A stretch of 64,000 bases of DNA, taken from assembly GCA_943788515.1 (NCBI GenBank), contig CALSQM010000001.1, positions 1-64,000 on the forward strand, read 5' to 3'. This DNA comes from an uncultured SAR86 cluster bacterium. Its GTDB lineage: Bacteria; Pseudomonadota; Gammaproteobacteria; Magnimaribacterales; D2472. This document shows, piece after piece, positions 7,273 through 44,996 of the stretch. The number at the start of each line of letters is the position of its first letter. Position 1 is the first letter of the stretch. The notes under the pieces were generated by a model. That model was not told the origin of the DNA. It saw only the letters and a list, made by a program, of their open reading frames with translations, and made no database searches. Both the position numbers and the translations under genes were made by a program.

Positions 7273-9648
7273 TTAGTAATTAAAAAGTGAATTATTCAGT
7301 AGTCTATTTATTTTATTAGTGGAGGAATTAAAGCCCTTGAGTTCAAACTCAAAATTTATTCGTCCCTTGTTTTCAATCTGAATAATATTATCCCATGCTT
7401 CTGCCAAATGGGGATAGTAAATATCTTTATTAATATATTTTGAAAGATTTCTATCTGATCCAGTCATTCTTAATGCAAAACAACAGTTCTCATATTCTAT
7501 ACCTAAGATACTCTCAATATTTTTATTAATTTCATCATCATGTTTTAGTTTTGCAATAAATTTAAATTTGGAGCTTAGCCTGATATCACCGAATATTTCT
7601 GAATAACTCATAGGGAAATTAAAATCACCCGACATTCTCCTGTATCTTTTAGCAATTCCAATCGACCCACCATTAAAATCATGCTTTAGGGTTAATCCAC
7701 CTAACGGCATTTTTTTATTTTTATTAAAATATCCTCCGTAAGCCATTAGCATGGTATTTCTATTAGGCATCCACTTGCCCATGACAGTTGTAGGTCCTCT
7801 ATCCATTGGCATCCCATCTATTTTAGTTGATTCCATGTTCATAGAGCTATCTAATATGCTATGACCAGACATCATTGGACGCATCCAAACCCTTCTATCA
7901 TCTAAAAAATATTTCTTGGAAACAGATACTGACAACTTTTCCATGCCCATTATGATTTTTTTATACTTTAAGCTGAGGGTGTAAAATTTTTGATCTCCAA
8001 TTCTATCCATCCCAGAAAAACGCAGATTATTAAATAATTCATTATTCATAGATAGTTCGTCTGCATCAAATATTGGGTTATTTGTTTGATCCTTATATGC
8101 TGTGTAACCAACAAATAGTCTAGGCTCAATAAAGTAGTTATTGTCTTGAGAGTTCCTTATAAAAATAGAGCTAATATCAATAGATGCATTGGGCACATTC
8201 ACATCATTAGTTGCTTGAGAGTTCCCAGAAAGATTATATTTAATAGAACTGATTCCAACATTTGCAACGATCTTTATTCCTTTAATATAACTATGATTTT
8301 GCAATGAAAGATCTGAATAAATTCTTGAACCCTCAGCTGGATTATTGATAAGTCTAGGGTATTTACCAGACATATCCTGATTGCCAAAATAGCCATGAAT
8401 AGAACTAGCCTTAAATGAAGATATATTGAGCTGCTCTTTTAAAATAATTTTTCCAAAACTTCTTGAATAGTTAAAATCAATCGATGGAGATTGTTCATAA
8501 CCATTGGTTAGAATAGGGTTCAGAGTTTGATAGCCTTGATGTTTTATTTGCACAGACGCATTTTTAAAAGTTTTTGATAAAGAAAAATTTTGACTTAAGT
8601 TTTGTATTCTCTGATAACCAATTGAAGTTATGTCTCCAGGGATATCTCTAAGAAAAAGACTATCCGATACTTTCGACCAATCTAAATCAATTTTTATTGA
8701 TTCATGCTCGAATGTATCGAAAATATTAAAGGCCCATCTTGGAGAATTACTGCCATATCCTTCTTTTTCATATTCGTCATCTTTACTAAAATAAATGATA
8801 TCTAGGTTTCGTAGGTTTCTATTTTCTCCATGCAGAGACCGGAAATTTAATTCTAACCCTTGTCCGCGCTTTGCAATCATCCTTGGGGCTATTGTTATAT
8901 CAGAAGACGAAGACAGCACTTTGTAATATGGGAGTGTTATATCAGCCCCATCCGATGAAAAAGATAACGAGGGCTCAAGAAATCCTGTCATCCTTTCAGT
9001 TGACGTTGCAAAGGGCAGTTGCGGCAATGCAAGAACAGTTTTGCCCATTACTTGAAGTTTTATTGATTTAGCTAAGCCTCGATTAGTTTCCGCATTCAAT
9101 CTAATTTCTTTAGCTTGTATTACCCATCCCTTGCTCGGGTTAGCGCATGAAGATATCGATGTATTCGCTAAATTTATTATGCTATTTAACTGCCCATCAA
9201 GGCTTTCAAATTTAAAAATAAGGCCTCTTTCATCAAGGTAGGCCTGACCATCAAAAAGAGATAATTCGCTATCTTTTTTATTAAAAAAACCATTTTCTGC
9301 TCGAAAGTAGAAGTCTTTTAAGAAGATTTCACCACCATTAAAAAATTGTATTTTTCCATTATCTCTATCCAGATTTGCATTCTGTGCTTTTAATAAGCCT
9401 TCTGGAAAATCTAAAGTAACGTTACCATCAAGAACAAGATTCTTATTATCAGTAAACTCAAATTGATCTGAATTTACCTTAAGATCTTGACCTTCCTTTA
9501 CTTCACCCATTAAGGGTGAATAGGCTATACATCTACTTACATTTGACTCGGATGTTGGAATTAAAACCAATTCACTTATTTCACCATATGCAAAAGATGA
9601 TATAGAAATAAGCCCACAGATATTGGTTATAAAAGAAGATTTCTTCAT
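7273..9648 (-). CDS. lptD: LPS-assembly protein LptD
   Basis: LptD is the outer-membrane beta-barrel that inserts lipopolysaccharide into the outer leaflet with LptE. A signal peptide is followed by the periplasmic OstA/jelly-roll region (DQFEFTDNKNLVLDGNVTLDFPEG) and a long C-terminal barrel. Cysteines at about residues 39 and 168 and an adjacent pair at about 722-723 (YENCCFAL) match the conserved disulfide-forming cysteines of LptD. The length of 791 equals the family norm. It heads the lptD-surA-pdxA-rsmA-apaH-cca series, and the cell therefore probably makes LPS. Confidence 0.93.
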   Translation of the reverse strand: MKKSSFITNICGLISISSFAYGEISELVLIPTSESNVSRCIAYSPLMGEVKEGQDLKVNSDQFEFTDNKNLVLDGNVTLDFPEGLLKAQNANLDRDNGKIQFFNGGEIFLKDFYFRAENGFFNKKDSELSLFDGQAYLDERGLIFKFESLDGQLNSIINLANTSISSCANPSKGWVIQAKEIRLNAETNRGLAKSIKLQVMGKTVLALPQLPFATSTERMTGFLEPSLSFSSDGADITLPYYKVLSSSSDITIAPRMIAKRGQGLELNFRSLHGENRNLRNLDIIYFSKDDEYEKEGYGSNSPRWAFNIFDTFEHESIKIDLDWSKVSDSLFLRDIPGDITSIGYQRIQNLSQNFSLSKTFKNASVQIKHQGYQTLNPILTNGYEQSPSIDFNYSRSFGKIILKEQLNISSFKASSIHGYFGNQDMSGKYPRLINNPAEGSRIYSDLSLQNHSYIKGIKIVANVGISSIKYNLSGNSQATNDVNVPNASIDISSIFIRNSQDNNYFIEPRLFVGYTAYKDQTNNPIFDADELSMNNELFNNLRFSGMDRIGDQKFYTLSLKYKKIIMGMEKLSVSVSKKYFLDDRRVWMRPMMSGHSILDSSMNMESTKIDGMPMDRGPTTVMGKWMPNRNTMLMAYGGYFNKNKKMPLGGLTLKHDFNGGSIGIAKRYRRMSGDFNFPMSYSEIFGDIRLSSKFKFIAKLKHDDEINKNIESILGIEYENCCFALRMTGSDRNLSKYINKDIYYPHLAEAWDNIIQIENKGRINFEFELKGFNSSTNKINRLLNNSLFNY

Positions 9649-9697
9649 AGATTTATTTTATACCTCTTAGCTTTGAAAGAGTATTTTATAAAAAGTT

Positions 9698-10303
9698 CTA
9701 TTTCTTATAAGAATTAATATACTCTTCAAGCTGATAAAGGTGGTCTTTTCCAAAAAATATTTGCTGATCCATAAAGAAAGTTGGAACTCCAAAAGCTCCC
9801 TTATCAACAGCTTCGCTTGTATTTTTAATCAGCTTATCTTTACATTCTTGTGAAGTTACTATTTTGATAATAGCTTCAGCATCAAGTTTATTACTTATAA
9901 GAGTTTCTTGCAGGACATCTAGATCTGAAAGATTCTTACCTTCTTCCCACATAGCGCAAAGCATTACCTCAATATACTGATCAAATATGCTTAATTCTTG
10001 AGCTGCAAGAGCCCCTCTTTGGACATTGACAGTATTCTGCGGAAAATGCGAATTAAATTTATATTTATCAAGCTTATGCTGTTTTATGAACCTTTCAATT
10101 TCAATAAATTGATAGTTATTCTTATTTTTAATATCAGCAAAAGCAACGAAGGGAGGCTGGTTACCAGATAACTTCATTATTCCTCCTAGCAAACAAGGTA
10201 CATAATTAAATTTCACCCCAGTTCTTTCTTCGAACCCAGGAATTAGTTGATGACAGAAATATGCATTCGGGCTTGCTATATCAAAAATAAAGTCTACTTT
10301 CAT
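9698..10303 (-). CDS. DsbA-fold oxidoreductase, 2-hydroxychromene-2-carboxylate isomerase-like
   Basis: A 201-residue thioredoxin-fold protein of the HCCA isomerase / GST-kappa group. The N-terminal FIFDIASPNAYFCHQ has Ser (ASPNAY) at the position where DsbA has its CxxC cysteine, as in this glutathione-dependent subgroup. The conserved late GAFGVPTFFMDQQIFFGKDHLYQLEEYI matches the cis-proline region (GVPT). No signal peptide is present, so it is probably cytoplasmic. The true substrate is unknown. It is divergent from the SDR at 10350, with only 46 bases between them. Confidence 0.75.
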   Translation of the reverse strand: MKVDFIFDIASPNAYFCHQLIPGFEERTGVKFNYVPCLLGGIMKLSGNQPPFVAFADIKNKNNYQFIEIERFIKQHKLDKYKFNSHFPQNTVNVQRGALAAQELSIFDQYIEVMLCAMWEEGKNLSDLDVLQETLISNKLDAEAIIKIVTSQECKDKLIKNTSEAVDKGAFGVPTFFMDQQIFFGKDHLYQLEEYINSYKK

Positions 10304-36516: not shown

Positions 36517-38212
36517 ATGAAAAATTTTATTTTTGTTATTGCATTAATTTCATTTAATGTTTTCTCTTTATGTTCAAACGATCGAATCCTAGTAGCTAAA
36601 GAATTAGTCACTCTTGATGACCTATATCAAGATGCAAATGCTGTTTATATAAAAGGTAATAAATTTCATTCCATTGGCTCAAAAGAGGATTTAATTAAAA
36701 AGTTTCCCAATATCCCAGTAGATCATTTATACAAAGATAGTGTTATTGTTCCAGGTTTTATAGAGCATCACGTCACATCCACTGCTAGCTGCAATAACAA
36801 TGAATTCTGAAATTGTTGCCATTGATGACTGGAATGTGCCTCATAAAAAAAGTGACGGTGTTAGAAATAGAAAGGATTATCTTGAGCGCTTATTAAAAAC
36901 TGAAAGAAATATGAAAGATGATGCAGAGCCGCTTGTGAGTTGGGGCTTTCATCATTATTTTCATGGCGAATTAACAAGACAGGATCTAGATCTTATATCC
37001 AAGGATAGGCCTATATTAATAATACATAGATCTTTTCATGAATTTATTATGAACTCTAGGGCATTAAGCTTATTTAATATTACCGAAGATGATCTTAATC
37101 ATTTAAGTAAAGAGGAGAAAAAGTTTGCTAGTTTAGAAGAAGGGCATTTTTCAGAGCGAGGTTTAATTGCTGTGATGCCTAAGGTTATGAAATATCTTGC
37201 TGCACCTCAAAGGTTAATAACTGGTTTACAAATCACTGAAAATTATTTTCAAGAAAATGGCATCACGCTAATTGCAAATCCTGGATCTATGTATAACCCC
37301 AGCATACAGAAAGTTAAAAATTATGTTTTTGGTGATGAAGATACCCCTTTTAAATCTCTCTTTATTCCAAGTGCCCTTTATATGTTGGAACATACTGACA
37401 TATCTAATCTTTTAAAAACTACTGAAGATCATTTGTCTTGGGGTGAGGGAAAAGTAGGGTTCCTCCCAAAGCATATTAAACTTTTTACTGATGGCGCCAT
37501 GTATTCTCAAAATATGGTTCTTCGAGACGGTTATCTTGATGGACATCAGGGTGCATGGTTAATGGAAAATGATATTTTTAGAGAGGCCTTTAAGCTTTAT
37601 TGGGATGCTGGTTATCAAATTCATGTTCATCAGAATGGAGATTCTGGCCTTGATAGACTATTGGACGTTTTAGATGAGAATATGAAACGAAATCCTCGAG
37701 AAGACCATAGAACTACTGTGGTTCATTTTGGTTATTCTGCATTTGATCAAATAGATAGGATGAAAAAACTAGGAGTAATAGTTAGTGCAAATCCTTATTA
37801 TGTATCTGTGCTTTCTGATCTCTATAGTAGAGAGGGGGTTGGATATGAGCGATCTCAACAAATGGTTAGACTTGGGGATGTTGATAGAGCCAAAATAATA
37901 CTATCACTTCATTCCGATATGCCTATGGCGCCCGCATCCCCATTGGTTTTAATGCATGCAGCAATTAATAGAATTAATTATGCACATGAAGTGGCAGGCC
38001 CAAATCAAAGAATTTCAGCTCTAACAGCTCTTAAAGGAGTAACTTTAAATTCAGCTTATGTATTAGGAATTGAGAATGATTATGGCTCTATCAGCCCAGG
38101 CAAATATGCAAATCTTACCGTTCTTTCTGATAATCCTCTTTCAATTGACCCACTTAAAATAGACAAAATAAATGTTGAAGCTACTATAGTAGAGGGAAGG
38201 CCTTTTAAATAA
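36517..38212 (+). pseudogene. YtcJ-like exported amidohydrolase, broken by one frameshift
   Basis: Track ORFs 36517-36810 and 36800-38212 are one metal-dependent hydrolase of about 560 residues. The first carries a signal peptide (MKNFIFVIALISFNVFS) and DSVIVPGFIEHH; removing one base near 36773 gives the continuous EHHVHPLLAAITMNSEIVAIDDW, which restores the HxH metal motif. Later blocks are HIKLFTDGAMYSQ, YQIHVHQNGDSGLDRLLD, VVHFGYSAF, LSLHSDMPMAPASPL and SISPGKYANLTVL. YtcJ relatives include N-substituted formamide deformylase; the substrate here is unknown. The insertion could be a consensus error. Confidence 0.85.
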
Positions 38213-39219: not shown

Positions 39220-40569
39220 ATGACAGGCACTGTTAGTAATTCGATTCGAGCTGCTTATGGAATAGGCGACTATGCAATTTGCTTGTACTGGGGTGGCGTA
39301 AGTGTTTTTTTGCTATATTTTTATACTGATGTTGTTGGTATTGTTCCTTCTGCTGCTGGAATTATAATGCTCATTAGCATGACTTGGGATGCAGTTACAG
39401 ACCCTTTTATGGGATTTCTAGCTGAGAGAACAAGATCTAAAATGGGAAGCTACAGGCCTTATATTTTTTACGGCTCCATTCCATTAGCCTTATCGTTTAT
39501 TTTATTGTTATGGGTTCCTCCTTTTGAGGGCTTCACACTGCTTATATGTTTATTGTTAGTAAACTTATTCCATAGAACTTGCTTCACTATCGTGAGTGTT
39601 CCTTATTCATCCCTTACTGCAAGAATTACTGATAGTAGTGATGAGAGAACAATTCTTACAAGCTCTAGAATGCTTTTCGCTGCACTTGGCACTTTTTCTA
39701 TTGGAACATTTGGATTTCCAATTATATTTTATTTTGGTGGAGGAAATGAGTCAGTAGGGTTTGTATATCTTGGAGCTATTTCAGGTTTATTAGCAATTAT
39801 TATTCTGCAAATTACAGTTTATTTTGTTCAAGAAAGAAGGTTCAAAACTAATAAAAATAGATTACCAAATTTTATAGAAGTGACAAAATCAGTCTCTAGT
39901 AACTTTCCTTTCTGGATAGTCTTTTCAGCAATAATAATTTTAATCTCTACCTATCTAATGTTCAGTAATAATCTAATTTACTATACAAAATATGCACTGG
40001 GGCTTCATGAATATCAATTCCTTATTCAGCTTGTCCTTCTTGGAACGACTTTAATCACAGTGCCCCTTTGGGCATATGCAGCATTAAAGTTAGGAAAGAA
40101 AAACACATGGTTAATTTCAATGGTAATTTTATTTTTTGGCTTCTTTACTTTTTATTACTATCCAATCAATAATCTCAATACATTATTATATATTTTAGTC
40201 CTTATTGGTTTTGGCAATGGTGCAACTGGAGTGCTTTTTTGGTCAATGCTGCCTGATACCATTGAGTATGGTGAGTGGAAGTCTGGCATAAGAACCGAGT
40301 CGTCTTTATATGGATTCATGACTTTCGCACAAAAAGGATCCATAGCAATCTCGTTATTTATATTGACTATAATTCTTACCAATATTGGTTTTGAACCAAA
40401 TCAAGAACAATCCAATGAAACAATAAAGGCGCTTAAGAGTTTAATGTCGATCATTCCTCTTATTGGAGTATGTATAAGTTTTGCTTTGCTTTATTTCTAT
40501 CCTATAGATAAAAATTTCCATGAAAAATTAATTAAAGATATTGAAAATAGGAGAGCATTAGATGTCTAA
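39220..40569 (+). CDS. GPH-family sugar:cation symporter (MFS)
   Basis: A 449-residue transporter with twelve predicted membrane helices, of the glycoside-pentoside-hexuronide:cation family (MelB-like). Seen are YFYTDVVGIVPSAAGII, WDAVTDPFMGFLAERTRSKMGSYRPYI (the D-x3-DP-x-MG cation-binding region), VPYSSLTARITDSSDERT, and LFWSMLPDTIEYGEWKSGIRTESSLYG. Its stop overlaps the oxidoreductase fusion start by 8 bases. With the GH3 enzyme at 42555 it suggests uptake and breakdown of a glycoside. Confidence 0.9.
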   Translation: MTGTVSNSIRAAYGIGDYAICLYWGGVSVFLLYFYTDVVGIVPSAAGIIMLISMTWDAVTDPFMGFLAERTRSKMGSYRPYIFYGSIPLALSFILLLWVPPFEGFTLLICLLLVNLFHRTCFTIVSVPYSSLTARITDSSDERTILTSSRMLFAALGTFSIGTFGFPIIFYFGGGNESVGFVYLGAISGLLAIIILQITVYFVQERRFKTNKNRLPNFIEVTKSVSSNFPFWIVFSAIIILISTYLMFSNNLIYYTKYALGLHEYQFLIQLVLLGTTLITVPLWAYAALKLGKKNTWLISMVILFFGFFTFYYYPINNLNTLLYILVLIGFGNGATGVLFWSMLPDTIEYGEWKSGIRTESSLYGFMTFAQKGSIAISLFILTIILTNIGFEPNQEQSNETIKALKSLMSIIPLIGVCISFALLYFYPIDKNFHEKLIKDIENRRALDV

Positions 40570-42565
40570 AATTCGTTGGGGTATTGTTGGAAATGGAAGC
40601 ATAGCTTCAGCTTTTGCGCATTCTATAAAATATTGCCAATACTCAGAATTAATTGGAGTGTATGGAAGGAGTAATGACAAGCTTAATAGTTTCTCATCTA
40701 AATTTGATATTAAGCCATATAAAGATATAAATGACTTGATTGCCTCAAAAGAAATAGATGCTGTTTATATAGCAACTCCACATAGCAGTCATTATGAATA
40801 TTCATTGCTAGCAATCAAAAACAAAAAACACATTCTTTGCGAGAAACCAATGACAATAAACCATCTTGAAAGCATGGTGTTATTAAATTTAGCCAAAGAA
40901 GCAGAAGTATTCTTGATGGAAGCTTACATGTATAGGGTGCATCCACAAACATTCAATATTCTTGATAACCTATCTATTTTTGACAACAAAAAAAACAAGA
41001 TAACGATAACTAGTTCTTTTGGTTTCTCTGCTGATCTACCAGAGTCGCATAGGTTAAGAAATCCATATATGGGAGGAGGGGCTATCCTTGATGTTGGTTG
41101 CTATCCATTATCAATGGCAAAACTTATTGCTGGAAGACTCAACGGATTGTCTTTCGCTGATCCAGAAACCATAGATGCCAAAGGAAGGCTTGATTCTACT
41201 GGCGTTGACCTTCAATCTGAAGCTCACATAGTGTTCTCAGGCAATGTAGAAGCATATATAAAATGTGCTATAGATGAAGATTATACTAATGATTTAAAAA
41301 TTTCTGATGGCAACATAGATCTAGTAGCCAATCAGCCATGGCACTGTGGTCAATTTCAAGATGGGAATTCATCACTAGAAATATATAAAGATAATAAATT
41401 ATATAAAAAAATTCCTTTCAAGGATGAGGTGGGTTTGTTTACCAGAGAAATTGATCATGCATCTGAATGCATATTAGATAAAAAATTAGAGTCTCAATAC
41501 GTATCTCATTTAGATACTCAAAGTAATATGCTTTGGCTAGATAAATGGAGAGAATCTTTAAATATTGTCTGCCCTTTTAGTCAGCTTGAGAGCTCGTCAA
41601 TTTCAGAATCAAAATTTTATTTAACGCAAGAGTCAAAATTACAAGAAACCTCTCTTAACGGGATTGATAAATCAGGTTCTAGGCTGGCATTGGGTTGTGA
41701 TAATCAGACTTCTGCTTTACATGCATTTACCATGTTTGATCACTTCTATGGATCAGGTGGAAGAATTTTTGATACAGCATATATTTACAATAATGGAAAA
41801 GGTGATAAATATTTAGGGGATTGGATTAATTCAAGAAATGTTGAAAACGAAATTATAGTGCTTGGAAAGGGCGCACATACTCCGGAGTGTTCTCCTGAAT
41901 TTATAAGGCCTCAGATCATAGAATCCTTGGAGCGTTTAAATATTGATAAAATAGATATCTTCTGCTTGCATAGAGATAATCTAGATATACCTGTAGCAGA
42001 GTTTATGGATGCCCTAAATGAAGTCAGGTCTGAAGGCTTAATTGGATCTTTAGGGGCTTCAAACTGGGAGCTTGATCGTTTTTCAGAGGCAAGAGACTAT
42101 TCTGCCGCTAATGATAAAGAAGCATTTAGTGTGTTAAGTAATAATTTTAGTTTGGCCGAAATGGTTGATCCTGTATGGCCAGGGTGTGTTGGAACTAATA
42201 ATGAGTATTTGAATTACCTTATAGATAATAAAGTTATGCTTTTTCCCTGGTCAAGCCAAGCAAGAGGATTTTTTATAAAGAATAAAGAAATTACTTCTAA
42301 TGAGCATTTTTCAAATCCATCACTAGAAGAGGAAATAAGAGTTTGGCATGATGAGAAAAATCTTAAAAGAAGAAAAAAATGTTTTGAAATTGCCGAATCA
42401 AGAAATGTACAACCAATTCAAGTTGCTCTTGCTTATGTAATACAAAAATCTCCATTAATATTTCCACTCATTGGACCAAGAACAGTTCTGGAGACTGATA
42501 GCTCTATTGCCGCAACTCAGCTAAACCTATCTAAAGAAGAAATGAGTGAGCTATCTATAAATTGA
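40562..42565 (+). CDS. Fusion of Gfo/Idh/MocA oxidoreductase and aldo/keto reductase
   Basis: One 667-residue protein with two different NAD(P)-linked sugar reductase folds. Residues 1-335 form a Gfo/Idh/MocA enzyme: WGIVGNGSIASAFA, AVYIATPHSSHYEYSLLAI, the signature CEKPMTIN and MEAYMYRVHPQ. From about residue 365 an aldo/keto reductase follows: GRIFDTAYIYNNGKGD (Asp and Tyr), VLGKGAHTP (Lys), IDIFCLHRDN (His), SLGASNW and a nucleotide-binding LIGPRTVLETDSS near the end. The frame is clean, so this is a genuine fusion. It is cotranscribed with the GPH transporter and converges by 11 bases with the GH3 gene; a sugar isomerisation or epimerisation through a keto intermediate is a plausible role. 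Confidence 0.88.
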   Translation: MSKIRWGIVGNGSIASAFAHSIKYCQYSELIGVYGRSNDKLNSFSSKFDIKPYKDINDLIASKEIDAVYIATPHSSHYEYSLLAIKNKKHILCEKPMTINHLESMVLLNLAKEAEVFLMEAYMYRVHPQTFNILDNLSIFDNKKNKITITSSFGFSADLPESHRLRNPYMGGGAILDVGCYPLSMAKLIAGRLNGLSFADPETIDAKGRLDSTGVDLQSEAHIVFSGNVEAYIKCAIDEDYTNDLKISDGNIDLVANQPWHCGQFQDGNSSLEIYKDNKLYKKIPFKDEVGLFTREIDHASECILDKKLESQYVSHLDTQSNMLWLDKWRESLNIVCPFSQLESSSISESKFYLTQESKLQETSLNGIDKSGSRLALGCDNQTSALHAFTMFDHFYGSGGRIFDTAYIYNNGKGDKYLGDWINSRNVENEIIVLGKGAHTPECSPEFIRPQIIESLERLNIDKIDIFCLHRDNLDIPVAEFMDALNEVRSEGLIGSLGASNWELDRFSEARDYSAANDKEAFSVLSNNFSLAEMVDPVWPGCVGTNNEYLNYLIDNKVMLFPWSSQARGFFIKNKEITSNEHFSNPSLEEEIRVWHDEKNLKRRKKCFEIAESRNVQPIQVALAYVIQKSPLIFPLIGPRTVLETDSSIAATQLNLSKEEMSELSIN

Positions 42566-44996
42566 ACTGGTTGGATAAACGAATATCTTCTGAAGAAGCT
42601 CCAATATGAATCTTATAAGATCCTTTTTTAATTTCCCAGTCCTTCTTATCAAGACTCCATTCACTAAAGCTTTTGGCATTTAATATAATTTCGATTTTTT
42701 TTTCTTCCTGAGGAGATAAGAAGGTTTTATCAAATCCTTGAAGTTTTTTTACAGGTTTAGATTTTGTATCAATTATATGCTCCACATAGCATTGAGAAAT
42801 TTCAGCTCCTGAAAAGTCTCCAGTATTTTTAATAGTAAATTTACATGAAATTAAATCATCTTTAAGCTCATCAATTGCAAGATTAGAGTATTTAAATTTT
42901 GTGTAAGACAGCCCATGACCAAAAGGGTATTGCGTTTTTATTTTTTTTTTGTCATACCATTTATAACCGACTAGAAGCTTCTCATCATAATTCATTTGTA
43001 AATCTTTCCCTGGGTATGATGAAAAAGCAGGCGTATCCTCTATATTGATGGGAAAAGTTGAGGGTAATTTACCTGAGGGGCTGATATCTCCAGTAATAAT
43101 ATTAGCAAGAGCATTTCCAAACTCCTGACCTGCATACCAAGTTTGAATAACACTTTTAACTTTATGAATCCAAGGCATTTTAATTGGTGATCCTGTATTA
43201 AGGACAAGAATAGTGTTTGGATTGATATCAATAACAGCATCAATTAATTCATTTTGTCGAGAAGGCAGGTTAAAGTCAGCTCTGTCATTGCCCTCCGTCT
43301 CCCAGTCTGAATTCGTCCCTACGACCATAATTACCTGATCAACTTCTTTTGCTATCTGGAGGGCTTCATTAAATAAGTCTACTTTGTCTGGGGCTTTGCA
43401 CCCAATATATATAGCAGGAAAATTACCTTCAAACTTATATTGTATTTCTATCTGGTATTTTTTAGCATTTTCTAAGTTAGCCGTTCCTTTCTTAGAAGTT
43501 GTGCCAAGTGCAAAAAACGCATCACCTGGTTCAGTATTGCCCCAATTATCTATGATTTCTTTGCCGTCTATTAAGAGTTTGCTTTTTCCGATAGCAAAGA
43601 TCTCGAATTCATGAATGCCAGTTACATCTGGTGTATATGTGCAAGAGAATTTTACAAAAATATCTGGTCTCTCTTCCTTTGCTATTATGTCTTTAGCAAA
43701 ACCCTCAAGAGCCCAAAATTTACTTCTCAGTTCATATTCTTGAGATATAAGTTTTTCTCCACCATTAGCAGTATTAAAGTATTCAACTAGAAACTTATTC
43801 TTTTTACTTGAATCAGCTTCAATCAGATTTTCATTAAATATTGGAAGATATTTATATGTATGACAGCCTTTTGAGTATTTGATATTTACTGAATTTCCAA
43901 TCTTACTTTTTAATGCTTCAAGAGGGTGCGATTCATAATAGGATTGAAGATGAGCACTGCCTCCGCCAATAATTTGAGCATTTTTTGCATTAGGCCCAAT
44001 GATACCTATAGATTGTAAATTACTATCAAGCGGTAAAAGATTTTCATTTTTTAAAAGCACCATTCCTTCTTGTGCTGCCTCTCTTAAAAGAATGCGCTGC
44101 GCTTTATTATCGTTACTGCTCTCTGGTTTAATTTCAGGATGATCAAATCTTTTTGTAAAGGCTACCACATGAAGAATTCGTCTTACTTTGTTATTAATCT
44201 CTTGGATTGAAACGTTGTTATTGTCTACTCCGTCTTTTAGTAATTTACCCCAGTTTTTTGCAGGGCCTGGCATTTCAAGATCTAATCCACCATTAGCATT
44301 TTCAACCGTTTCTAAAGCCGCACCCCAATCACTTACTACATAACCATCAAAATCCCACTCCTCTTTTAAAATATTTATCAGTAAATTTCTATGAGAACTG
44401 CAATAAATATTATTGAGCTTGTTGTAGGCGCTCATAACAACTTTTGCATTTGCCTCTTTAATTGCCATTTCGAAAGGAAGTAAATAAATTTCTCTCAGTG
44501 TTTTTTCATCGATATTAGAACTAACAGCATACCTTTCATACTCGGTGTCATTTCCAACAAAGTGTTTTAAACATGCTGCAACATTTTTTGATTGCACTCC
44601 ATCAACATACTCAATTGCAATTCTTCCAGTAAGGTATGGATCTTCAGAGAAGCTTTCAAAATGTCTCCCACCTAAAGGATGTCTATGGATATTTATAGTT
44701 GGCCCCAGTAAAACGTCTACGTCCTTTGCTTTAGCTTCCTCTCCTAGCTCAATACCCAAGCGATTGATTAAATTCATATTCCAAGATGATCCCAAAGAGA
44801 TAGCACTTGGAAAGCAAGCAGAAGGCTCACCAGAATTTCCATTACCTCTAACCCCATTAGGCCCATCTGACATTTTTAAACTTGGTATGGCTAATCTTTC
44901 AACTTTGTTTGTATGCCACGCATCAAACCCACTTAATAATGATATCTTCTCTTCGAGCGTTAAATTGTTTAATATTTTTTCTATATTTGGCATCAT
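42555..44996 (-). CDS. Glycoside hydrolase family 3 beta-glucosidase with PA14 domain
   Basis: An 813-residue GH3 enzyme. The N-terminal TIM barrel has SDGPNGVRGNGNSGEPSACFPS, GRHFESFSEDPYLTG, CLKHFVGNDTEYERY and the nucleophile region GYVVSDWGA (Asp). The second domain has IGIIGPNAKNAQIIGGGSAHLQ; a PA14 carbohydrate-binding insertion sits at about residues 400-540 (EYFNTANGG; LLIDGKEIIDNWG), as in several glucosidases. It ends with a fibronectin-III-like domain. No signal peptide is visible, so it likely acts in the cytoplasm on imported glycosides. Confidence 0.93.
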   Translation of the reverse strand: MMPNIEKILNNLTLEEKISLLSGFDAWHTNKVERLAIPSLKMSDGPNGVRGNGNSGEPSACFPSAISLGSSWNMNLINRLGIELGEEAKAKDVDVLLGPTINIHRHPLGGRHFESFSEDPYLTGRIAIEYVDGVQSKNVAACLKHFVGNDTEYERYAVSSNIDEKTLREIYLLPFEMAIKEANAKVVMSAYNKLNNIYCSSHRNLLINILKEEWDFDGYVVSDWGAALETVENANGGLDLEMPGPAKNWGKLLKDGVDNNNVSIQEINNKVRRILHVVAFTKRFDHPEIKPESSNDNKAQRILLREAAQEGMVLLKNENLLPLDSNLQSIGIIGPNAKNAQIIGGGSAHLQSYYESHPLEALKSKIGNSVNIKYSKGCHTYKYLPIFNENLIEADSSKKNKFLVEYFNTANGGEKLISQEYELRSKFWALEGFAKDIIAKEERPDIFVKFSCTYTPDVTGIHEFEIFAIGKSKLLIDGKEIIDNWGNTEPGDAFFALGTTSKKGTANLENAKKYQIEIQYKFEGNFPAIYIGCKAPDKVDLFNEALQIAKEVDQVIMVVGTNSDWETEGNDRADFNLPSRQNELIDAVIDINPNTILVLNTGSPIKMPWIHKVKSVIQTWYAGQEFGNALANIITGDISPSGKLPSTFPINIEDTPAFSSYPGKDLQMNYDEKLLVGYKWYDKKKIKTQYPFGHGLSYTKFKYSNLAIDELKDDLISCKFTIKNTGDFSGAEISQCYVEHIIDTKSKPVKKLQGFDKTFLSPQEEKKIEIILNAKSFSEWSLDKKDWEIKKGSYKIHIGASSEDIRLSNQFNL

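Follow-up and report, generated by a model that had tools for sequence, protein, structure and literature searches.

What would a bacterium gain from encoding a Gfo/Idh/MocA dehydrogenase and an aldo/keto reductase (AKR) as a single protein, and which reaction would such a protein carry out? The question is raised by a gene of SAR86, a group among the commonest bacteria of the surface ocean and mostly uncultured. A first-pass annotation of the window (the whole stretch of DNA analysed here, 64,000 nucleotides) had described one uninterrupted frame of 667 residues joining both oxidoreductases and had proposed that oxidation by one half and reduction by the other convert a sugar. The first of these claims was borne out by the reading frame itself, by Pfam and by 77 further open loci.

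Architecture of the fusion

The frame starts with ATG, ends with TGA and contains no internal stops. Its N-terminal half comprises both domains of a Gfo/Idh/MocA oxidoreductase, namely PF01408 (residues 4-121, E 2e-24) and the C-terminal domain PF22725 (residues 149-243; 27.4 bits, cut-off 27), and its fold matches that of 2o48 with a TMt of 0.86. The C-terminal half is a PF00248 barrel (residues 381-664, E 5e-45), which is also apparent in the DSSP assignment of the predicted model. The two are connected by a short linker, whose length differs from lineage to lineage in the alignment and whose dN exceeds that of either half. The coordinates of these and of the neighbouring features are given in Table 1.

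Table 1 Features of the fusion gene and its neighbours in the window.
Feature	Position	Strand	Evidence
GPH-family sugar:cation symporter	39220..40569	+	TIGR00792 (E 1e-93), MFS_2
Fused Gfo/Idh/MocA dehydrogenase - aldo/keto reductase, 667 aa	40562..42565	+	ORF, Pfam, 78 open homologues, predicted structure
N-terminal Gfo/Idh/MocA half, residues 1-335 (about)	40562..41566	+	PF01408, PF22725, PDB matches
Lys95 of the CEKP motif, predicted catalytic	40844..40846	+	Invariant in 78/78
Asp177 and Tyr181 (DVGCY), predicted catalytic or substrate-binding	41090..41104	+	Invariant in 78/78
Linker, residues 336-360	41567..41641	+	Alignment
C-terminal aldo/keto reductase half, residues 361-667 (about)	41642..42562	+	PF00248, PDB matches
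Asp404 and Tyr409, AKR catalytic tetrad	41771..41788	+	Invariant in 78/78
Lys436, AKR tetrad	41867..41869	+	Invariant in 78/78
His470, AKR tetrad, within the conserved HRDN motif	41969..41971	+	Invariant in 78/78
GH3 beta-glycosidase with PA14 insert	42555..44996	-	Pfam; closest PDB chains are beta-glucosidases

The fusion occurs once in the assembly containing the window (~1.12 Mb), which also holds a distant, unfused AKR on a different contig. The closest homologues are found in other SAR86 genomes, and a single-cell genome (L001) carries the same uninterrupted frame at 92% identity. Since the same open frame occurs in 77 other loci, including this one, the fusion is not an assembly error; independent genomes from single cells, metagenomes and isolates show an open frame, which rules out an assembly or sequencing artefact.

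Comparison of the window's gene (40562-42562) with that of L001, its closest relative (8001-10001), gave a dS of 0.18 for the Gfo half and 0.53 for the AKR half, which suggests recombination within the gene among SAR86 strains.

Conservation of both active sites

The Gfo half carries the EKP lysine (Lys95) and the DxxxY/H motif (Asp177, Tyr181) of its family, while the AKR half carries the full Asp-Tyr-Lys-His tetrad (D404, Y409, K436, H470). Loss of either active site would have spoken against a two-step conversion, but both sets are complete and invariant in all 78 aligned fusions, and their residues are also unchanged whether the halves are fused, split or single. Purifying selection acts on both halves: against three close relatives, dN/dS is 0.07-0.16 in the Gfo half and 0.06-0.10 in the AKR half. 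A degenerate half was ruled out on these two grounds, and both halves look active as judged from their sequences. In addition, Arg36, which follows the second Rossmann strand, is near-invariant; we take an arginine at this site to favour NADP in such families. Both halves are probably NADP-linked.

Structure prediction of the fusion yielded a mean pLDDT of 93.2 and a pTM of 0.92. For a two-domain protein, this pTM suggests that the halves are held in a fixed mutual placement, at least in the model.

Distribution and origin of the fusion

A scan of genomes returned 79 loci. Counting the window, 78 sequences are complete or nearly complete fusions, free of stops, that could be aligned end to end. 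Represented among them are SAR86, Actinomycetota (mostly Kribbella), Chloroflexota, Planctomycetota, Lentisphaerota and one Pseudomonadales genome, and a plasmid collection contributed many more records from Rhizobium, Sinorhizobium and Phyllobacterium, Rhizobiaceae plasmids among them. The fusion therefore recurs widely, in at least five phyla, and represents a family rather than a local oddity. Within the SAR86 order, whose genomes are mostly incomplete, 112 of 203 had a match at E 1e-20, mostly full length. An even sample of 200 Pseudomonadota genomes contained the fusion only seven times, in the window's genome and in six genomes from a single family; two copies from that family share 88% and 96% identity with the fusion protein of R. 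etli (plasmid p42b, WP_011427608.1).

Four further genomes (G787, G725, G788 and G918) gave fusion-length matches with lower scores and one or two in-frame stops; these could be same-frame split pairs or broken copies.

Searches in Actinomycetota, Planctomycetota and Chloroflexota also revealed separate neighbouring halves in eight genomes, always on the same strand and in the order Gfo then AKR, with the two genes overlapping by a few bases in most of them. Halves encoded as separate, unlinked genes in close relatives would have weakened the proposal, but none were found within SAR86; farther relatives have linked pairs, and unlinked singles are limited to genomes more distant still. Lone AKR halves occur in Chloroflexota and lone Gfo halves in Martelella and Chloroflexota, in each case with the partner absent next door, so each half is able to work unfused somewhere.

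In quick domain trees, built without bootstraps and with some long branches, all 63 of 63 fused rows formed one clade of the AKR tree (SH-aLRT 99), outside which lay single AKRs and then split-pair AKRs, whereas the fused rows of the Gfo tree formed one clade (95) together with five single Gfo genes, next to the split-pair Gfo genes; the order among the non-fused groups is uncertain. These trees are most simply read as one fusion event, after which the gene moved between phyla and lost its AKR half a few times, as on plasmid pMM170 of Martelella. The fusion is both old and widespread.

The fused class and the split pairs differ near the catalytic motifs of both halves at once: Trp-Thr versus Met123-Tyr124 in the Gfo half, and Asp versus Asn473 and Pro versus Asn527 in the AKR half. 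These differences fit a joint specialisation of the fused class toward a new substrate, of which they are only suggestive.

Two loci outside the fused class deserve description. On plasmid pMM170 of Martelella mediterranea (L094, 6989-8020), a single Gfo half is 59% identical to the rhizobial fusion and its AKR half is gone. The surrounding ABC cluster also contains genes for an alcohol dehydrogenase, a D-lactate dehydrogenase-like protein, ManD and a relative of mandelate racemase, and the place of the lost half may have been taken by another dehydrogenase. An actinobacterial locus (L147, 399-8128) combines ThuA, three extra Gfo genes, an AP_endonuc_2 TIM barrel, a split Gfo-AKR pair, an SSF symporter and GH38, and looks like a 3-keto-sugar catabolic locus.

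Genomic context

The GPH transporter and the GH3 enzyme that the first-pass annotation had placed beside the fusion were both confirmed. The end of the symporter gene overlaps the start of the fusion gene by 8 bp; the GH3 gene is convergent with the fusion gene, their 3' ends overlapping, and its product has no evident signal peptide. Both neighbours are conserved among the 47 SAR86 loci of the scan, where GPH lies upstream in 46, the sole exception beginning at a contig end, and a convergent GH3 gene lies downstream in all. The closer relatives of the window within SAR86 thus have the fusion next to a sugar importer. The arrangement varies in distant SAR86 families, with only GPH (L161, L163), both genes (L162), GH3 and no GPH (L165), or neither within ~6 kb (L164). 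An Amidohydro_3 gene (window 36800-38212) lies upstream of the cassette in the window and in L001/L002 and downstream of GH3 in L004, L005, L007 and L009.

In other lineages, genes at high-GC loci were called from GC3-weighted ORFs and tblastn, plain ORF calling being unreliable there. In rhizobia, the fusion is the last gene of an operon, following a substrate-binding protein, two permeases and an ATPase, with a regulator of the AraC type, or of the ROK type in Sinorhizobium. The smallest of these operons consist of the regulator, the ABC transporter and the fusion, with no kinase, aldolase or dehydratase present. Similarly, the Kribbella operon comprises three ABC genes and, downstream of them, the fusion. 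Many Planctomycetota copies appear to stand alone, and no nearby transporter was recognised for them.

The nature of the sugar is less evident from these neighbourhoods. Besides GH3, the adjoining glycosidases belong to GH4 (L174, L181), to GH13, together with a HAD phosphatase (L155), or to a GH32/43-like family, together with ThuA (L064), and since they differ among lineages, a common substrate does not emerge. The closest solved relative of the Kribbella binding protein is the cellobiose-binding 8bfy and those of the R. etli binding protein are 6h0h/6q5g and Lin1841; for these two lineages, the solved relatives point loosely to sugars or disaccharides and disagree on a single one.

Proposed reaction and alternatives

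Several lineages keep little beyond an importer and the fusion, which supports a self-contained sugar conversion. Given that non-homologous importers stand beside the same enzyme and that the smallest cassettes hold no kinase or lyase, the enzyme alone would make an ordinary product. The presence of an oxidising and a reducing half in the same chain, each probably using NADP, likewise fits a conversion that is redox-neutral overall. We consider it probable that the fusion converts one sugar to another through an oxidation paired with a corresponding reduction. In this part the original proposal stands, as the intact sites, the old fusion, the linked sister genes and the transporter-plus-fusion operons all fit it. 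Beyond this, we infer a substrate and carbon atom shared by the halves, the direction of the reaction, the use of NADP by both, epimerisation, and hand-over or channelling between the sites.

Our preferred version of such a bifunctional, net redox-neutral sugar converter, which we hold tentatively and at slightly short of even confidence, is epimerisation via a keto-sugar. The sugar would be imported, in SAR86 via the GPH symporter and perhaps after a cytoplasmic GH3 enzyme has freed it from a beta-glycoside. The Gfo half would oxidise one hydroxyl with NADP+ to a keto-sugar, which the AKR half would then reduce from the opposite face with the NADPH just made, giving an epimer usable by central metabolism. 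Several observations speak against this version: each half also exists alone in some genomes, the adjoining glycosidases vary with the lineage, many Planctomycetota copies have no recognised transporter close by, and the cassette is partly lost in distant SAR86 families. The fullest form of this proposal is a single-chain oxidation-reduction epimerase that passes the keto-sugar from the Gfo to the AKR site, was fused once, spans at least five phyla and makes an odd sugar usable with a transporter and one enzyme; taken as a whole, it is rather unlikely to hold in every part.

The steps might instead not be successive. The Gfo half could oxidise a glycoside to its 3-keto form, a separate enzyme could cleave it, and the AKR half could reduce the released 3-keto-sugar. 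Levoglucosan breakdown, which uses separate Gfo enzymes for its oxidation and its last reduction (PMC7676230), is a precedent, and the company of ThuA, a TIM barrel of the AP_endonuc_2 type and several Gfo genes around the split pair of L147, and of ThuA and the GH32/43-like gene at the fusion of L064, agrees with such a route. However, the SAR86 cassette and the smallest operons of rhizobia showed neither a TIM-barrel lyase nor ThuA, and we consider this reading unlikely.

Aldo/keto reductases commonly reduce aldoses, and an isomerisation that begins with reduction, as in the fungal pair of xylose reductase and xylitol dehydrogenase, is a further and somewhat weaker candidate. Here the AKR half would convert an aldose to an alditol, which the Gfo half would oxidise at another position to a ketose. 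This scheme would also be redox-neutral with one cofactor pool and would account for the transporter-plus-enzyme operons, but the matches of the AKR half are IolS, DepB and perakine reductase, not aldose reductases, and ring-carbon oxidoreductases, for instance the 3-ketoreductase KijD10, are among the closest sugar-active matches of the Gfo half.

It is improbable that the protein is a dismutase, in which lactone formation from a sugar by the Gfo half would be coupled, only through cofactor recycling, to reduction of a different carbonyl by the AKR half. Such chemistry is known from two kinds of Gfo relative found among the structural matches, the glucose-fructose and the aldose-aldose oxidoreductases, but these manage with one domain, which would leave the AKR half superfluous. 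AKR folds can be regulatory, as in Kv-beta, and one half might then be a scaffold or regulatory domain beside a sole catalyst in vivo, but with both catalytic sets complete and invariant in 78 sequences and purifying selection on both halves, we regard this as very improbable.

Annotation and significance

Each half belongs to a known family, and the combination is already present in public genomes under single-domain names, deposited records labelling it 'aldo/keto reductase' (RefSeq) or 'Gfo/Idh/MocA family oxidoreductase'. No curated NCBIfam model and no PDB chain among the matches spans both halves. The fusion is undescribed in the papers searched, with most subscription journals outside the coverage, and no biochemistry on any family member was found in that literature. 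We conclude that this family of bifunctional enzymes is real, widespread and, it appears, uncharacterised, but that it does not constitute a new class of system. Its reaction, once known, would name a carbon source for SAR86 and root-nodule bacteria, correct the 'aldo/keto reductase' annotation across a large family and offer a one-protein, cofactor-balanced route for sugar conversion.

Comparison with known systems

The fusion falls below the NCBIfam equivalog cut-offs of IolG (inositol 2-dehydrogenase; 67.7 versus 355 bits), levoglucosan dehydrogenase (64 versus 650 bits) and the glycoside 3-dehydrogenase BT_2158 (38 versus 750 bits). The best PDB matches of the Gfo half are dihydrodiol dehydrogenase (2o48) and KijD10 (3rbv), with ~20-24% identity to the best. 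With the Gfo/Idh/MocA oxidoreductases, including dimeric dihydrodiol dehydrogenase, KijD10 and the glucose-fructose and aldose-aldose enzymes, it shares the Rossmann and alpha/beta C-terminal fold, the EKP lysine and DxxxY, but unlike the fusion, none of the solved chains among the matches has a second oxidoreductase domain.

The AKR half matches IolS (1pyf) and DepB (8hwn) in the PDB and shares the TIM barrel and the Asp-Tyr-Lys-His tetrad with AKR11/AKR13-like enzymes (IolS, DepB, perakine reductase). It differs from these in being joined to a Gfo domain, and its signature consists of His439 past the catalytic lysine, HRDN at the histidine of the tetrad, and ETxSS, whose matching sites are occupied by Q, D and N in outgroup AKRs.

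Among pathways, LgdA and LgdC of levoglucosan catabolism likewise combine an NAD-linked oxidation with a later reduction at zero net cofactor use, but there the two steps are carried out by separate proteins, a beta-elimination and a hydration intervene, and the paper mentions no AKR (PMC7676230). The deoxynivalenol (DON) epimerisation pair acts on a substrate that is not a sugar and, in reported cases, relies for oxidation on a separate quinone/PQQ-dependent dehydrogenase with no Gfo domain. In principle, however, it is alike: a dehydrogenase forms 3-keto-DON, from which an AKR such as DepB then makes the epimer.
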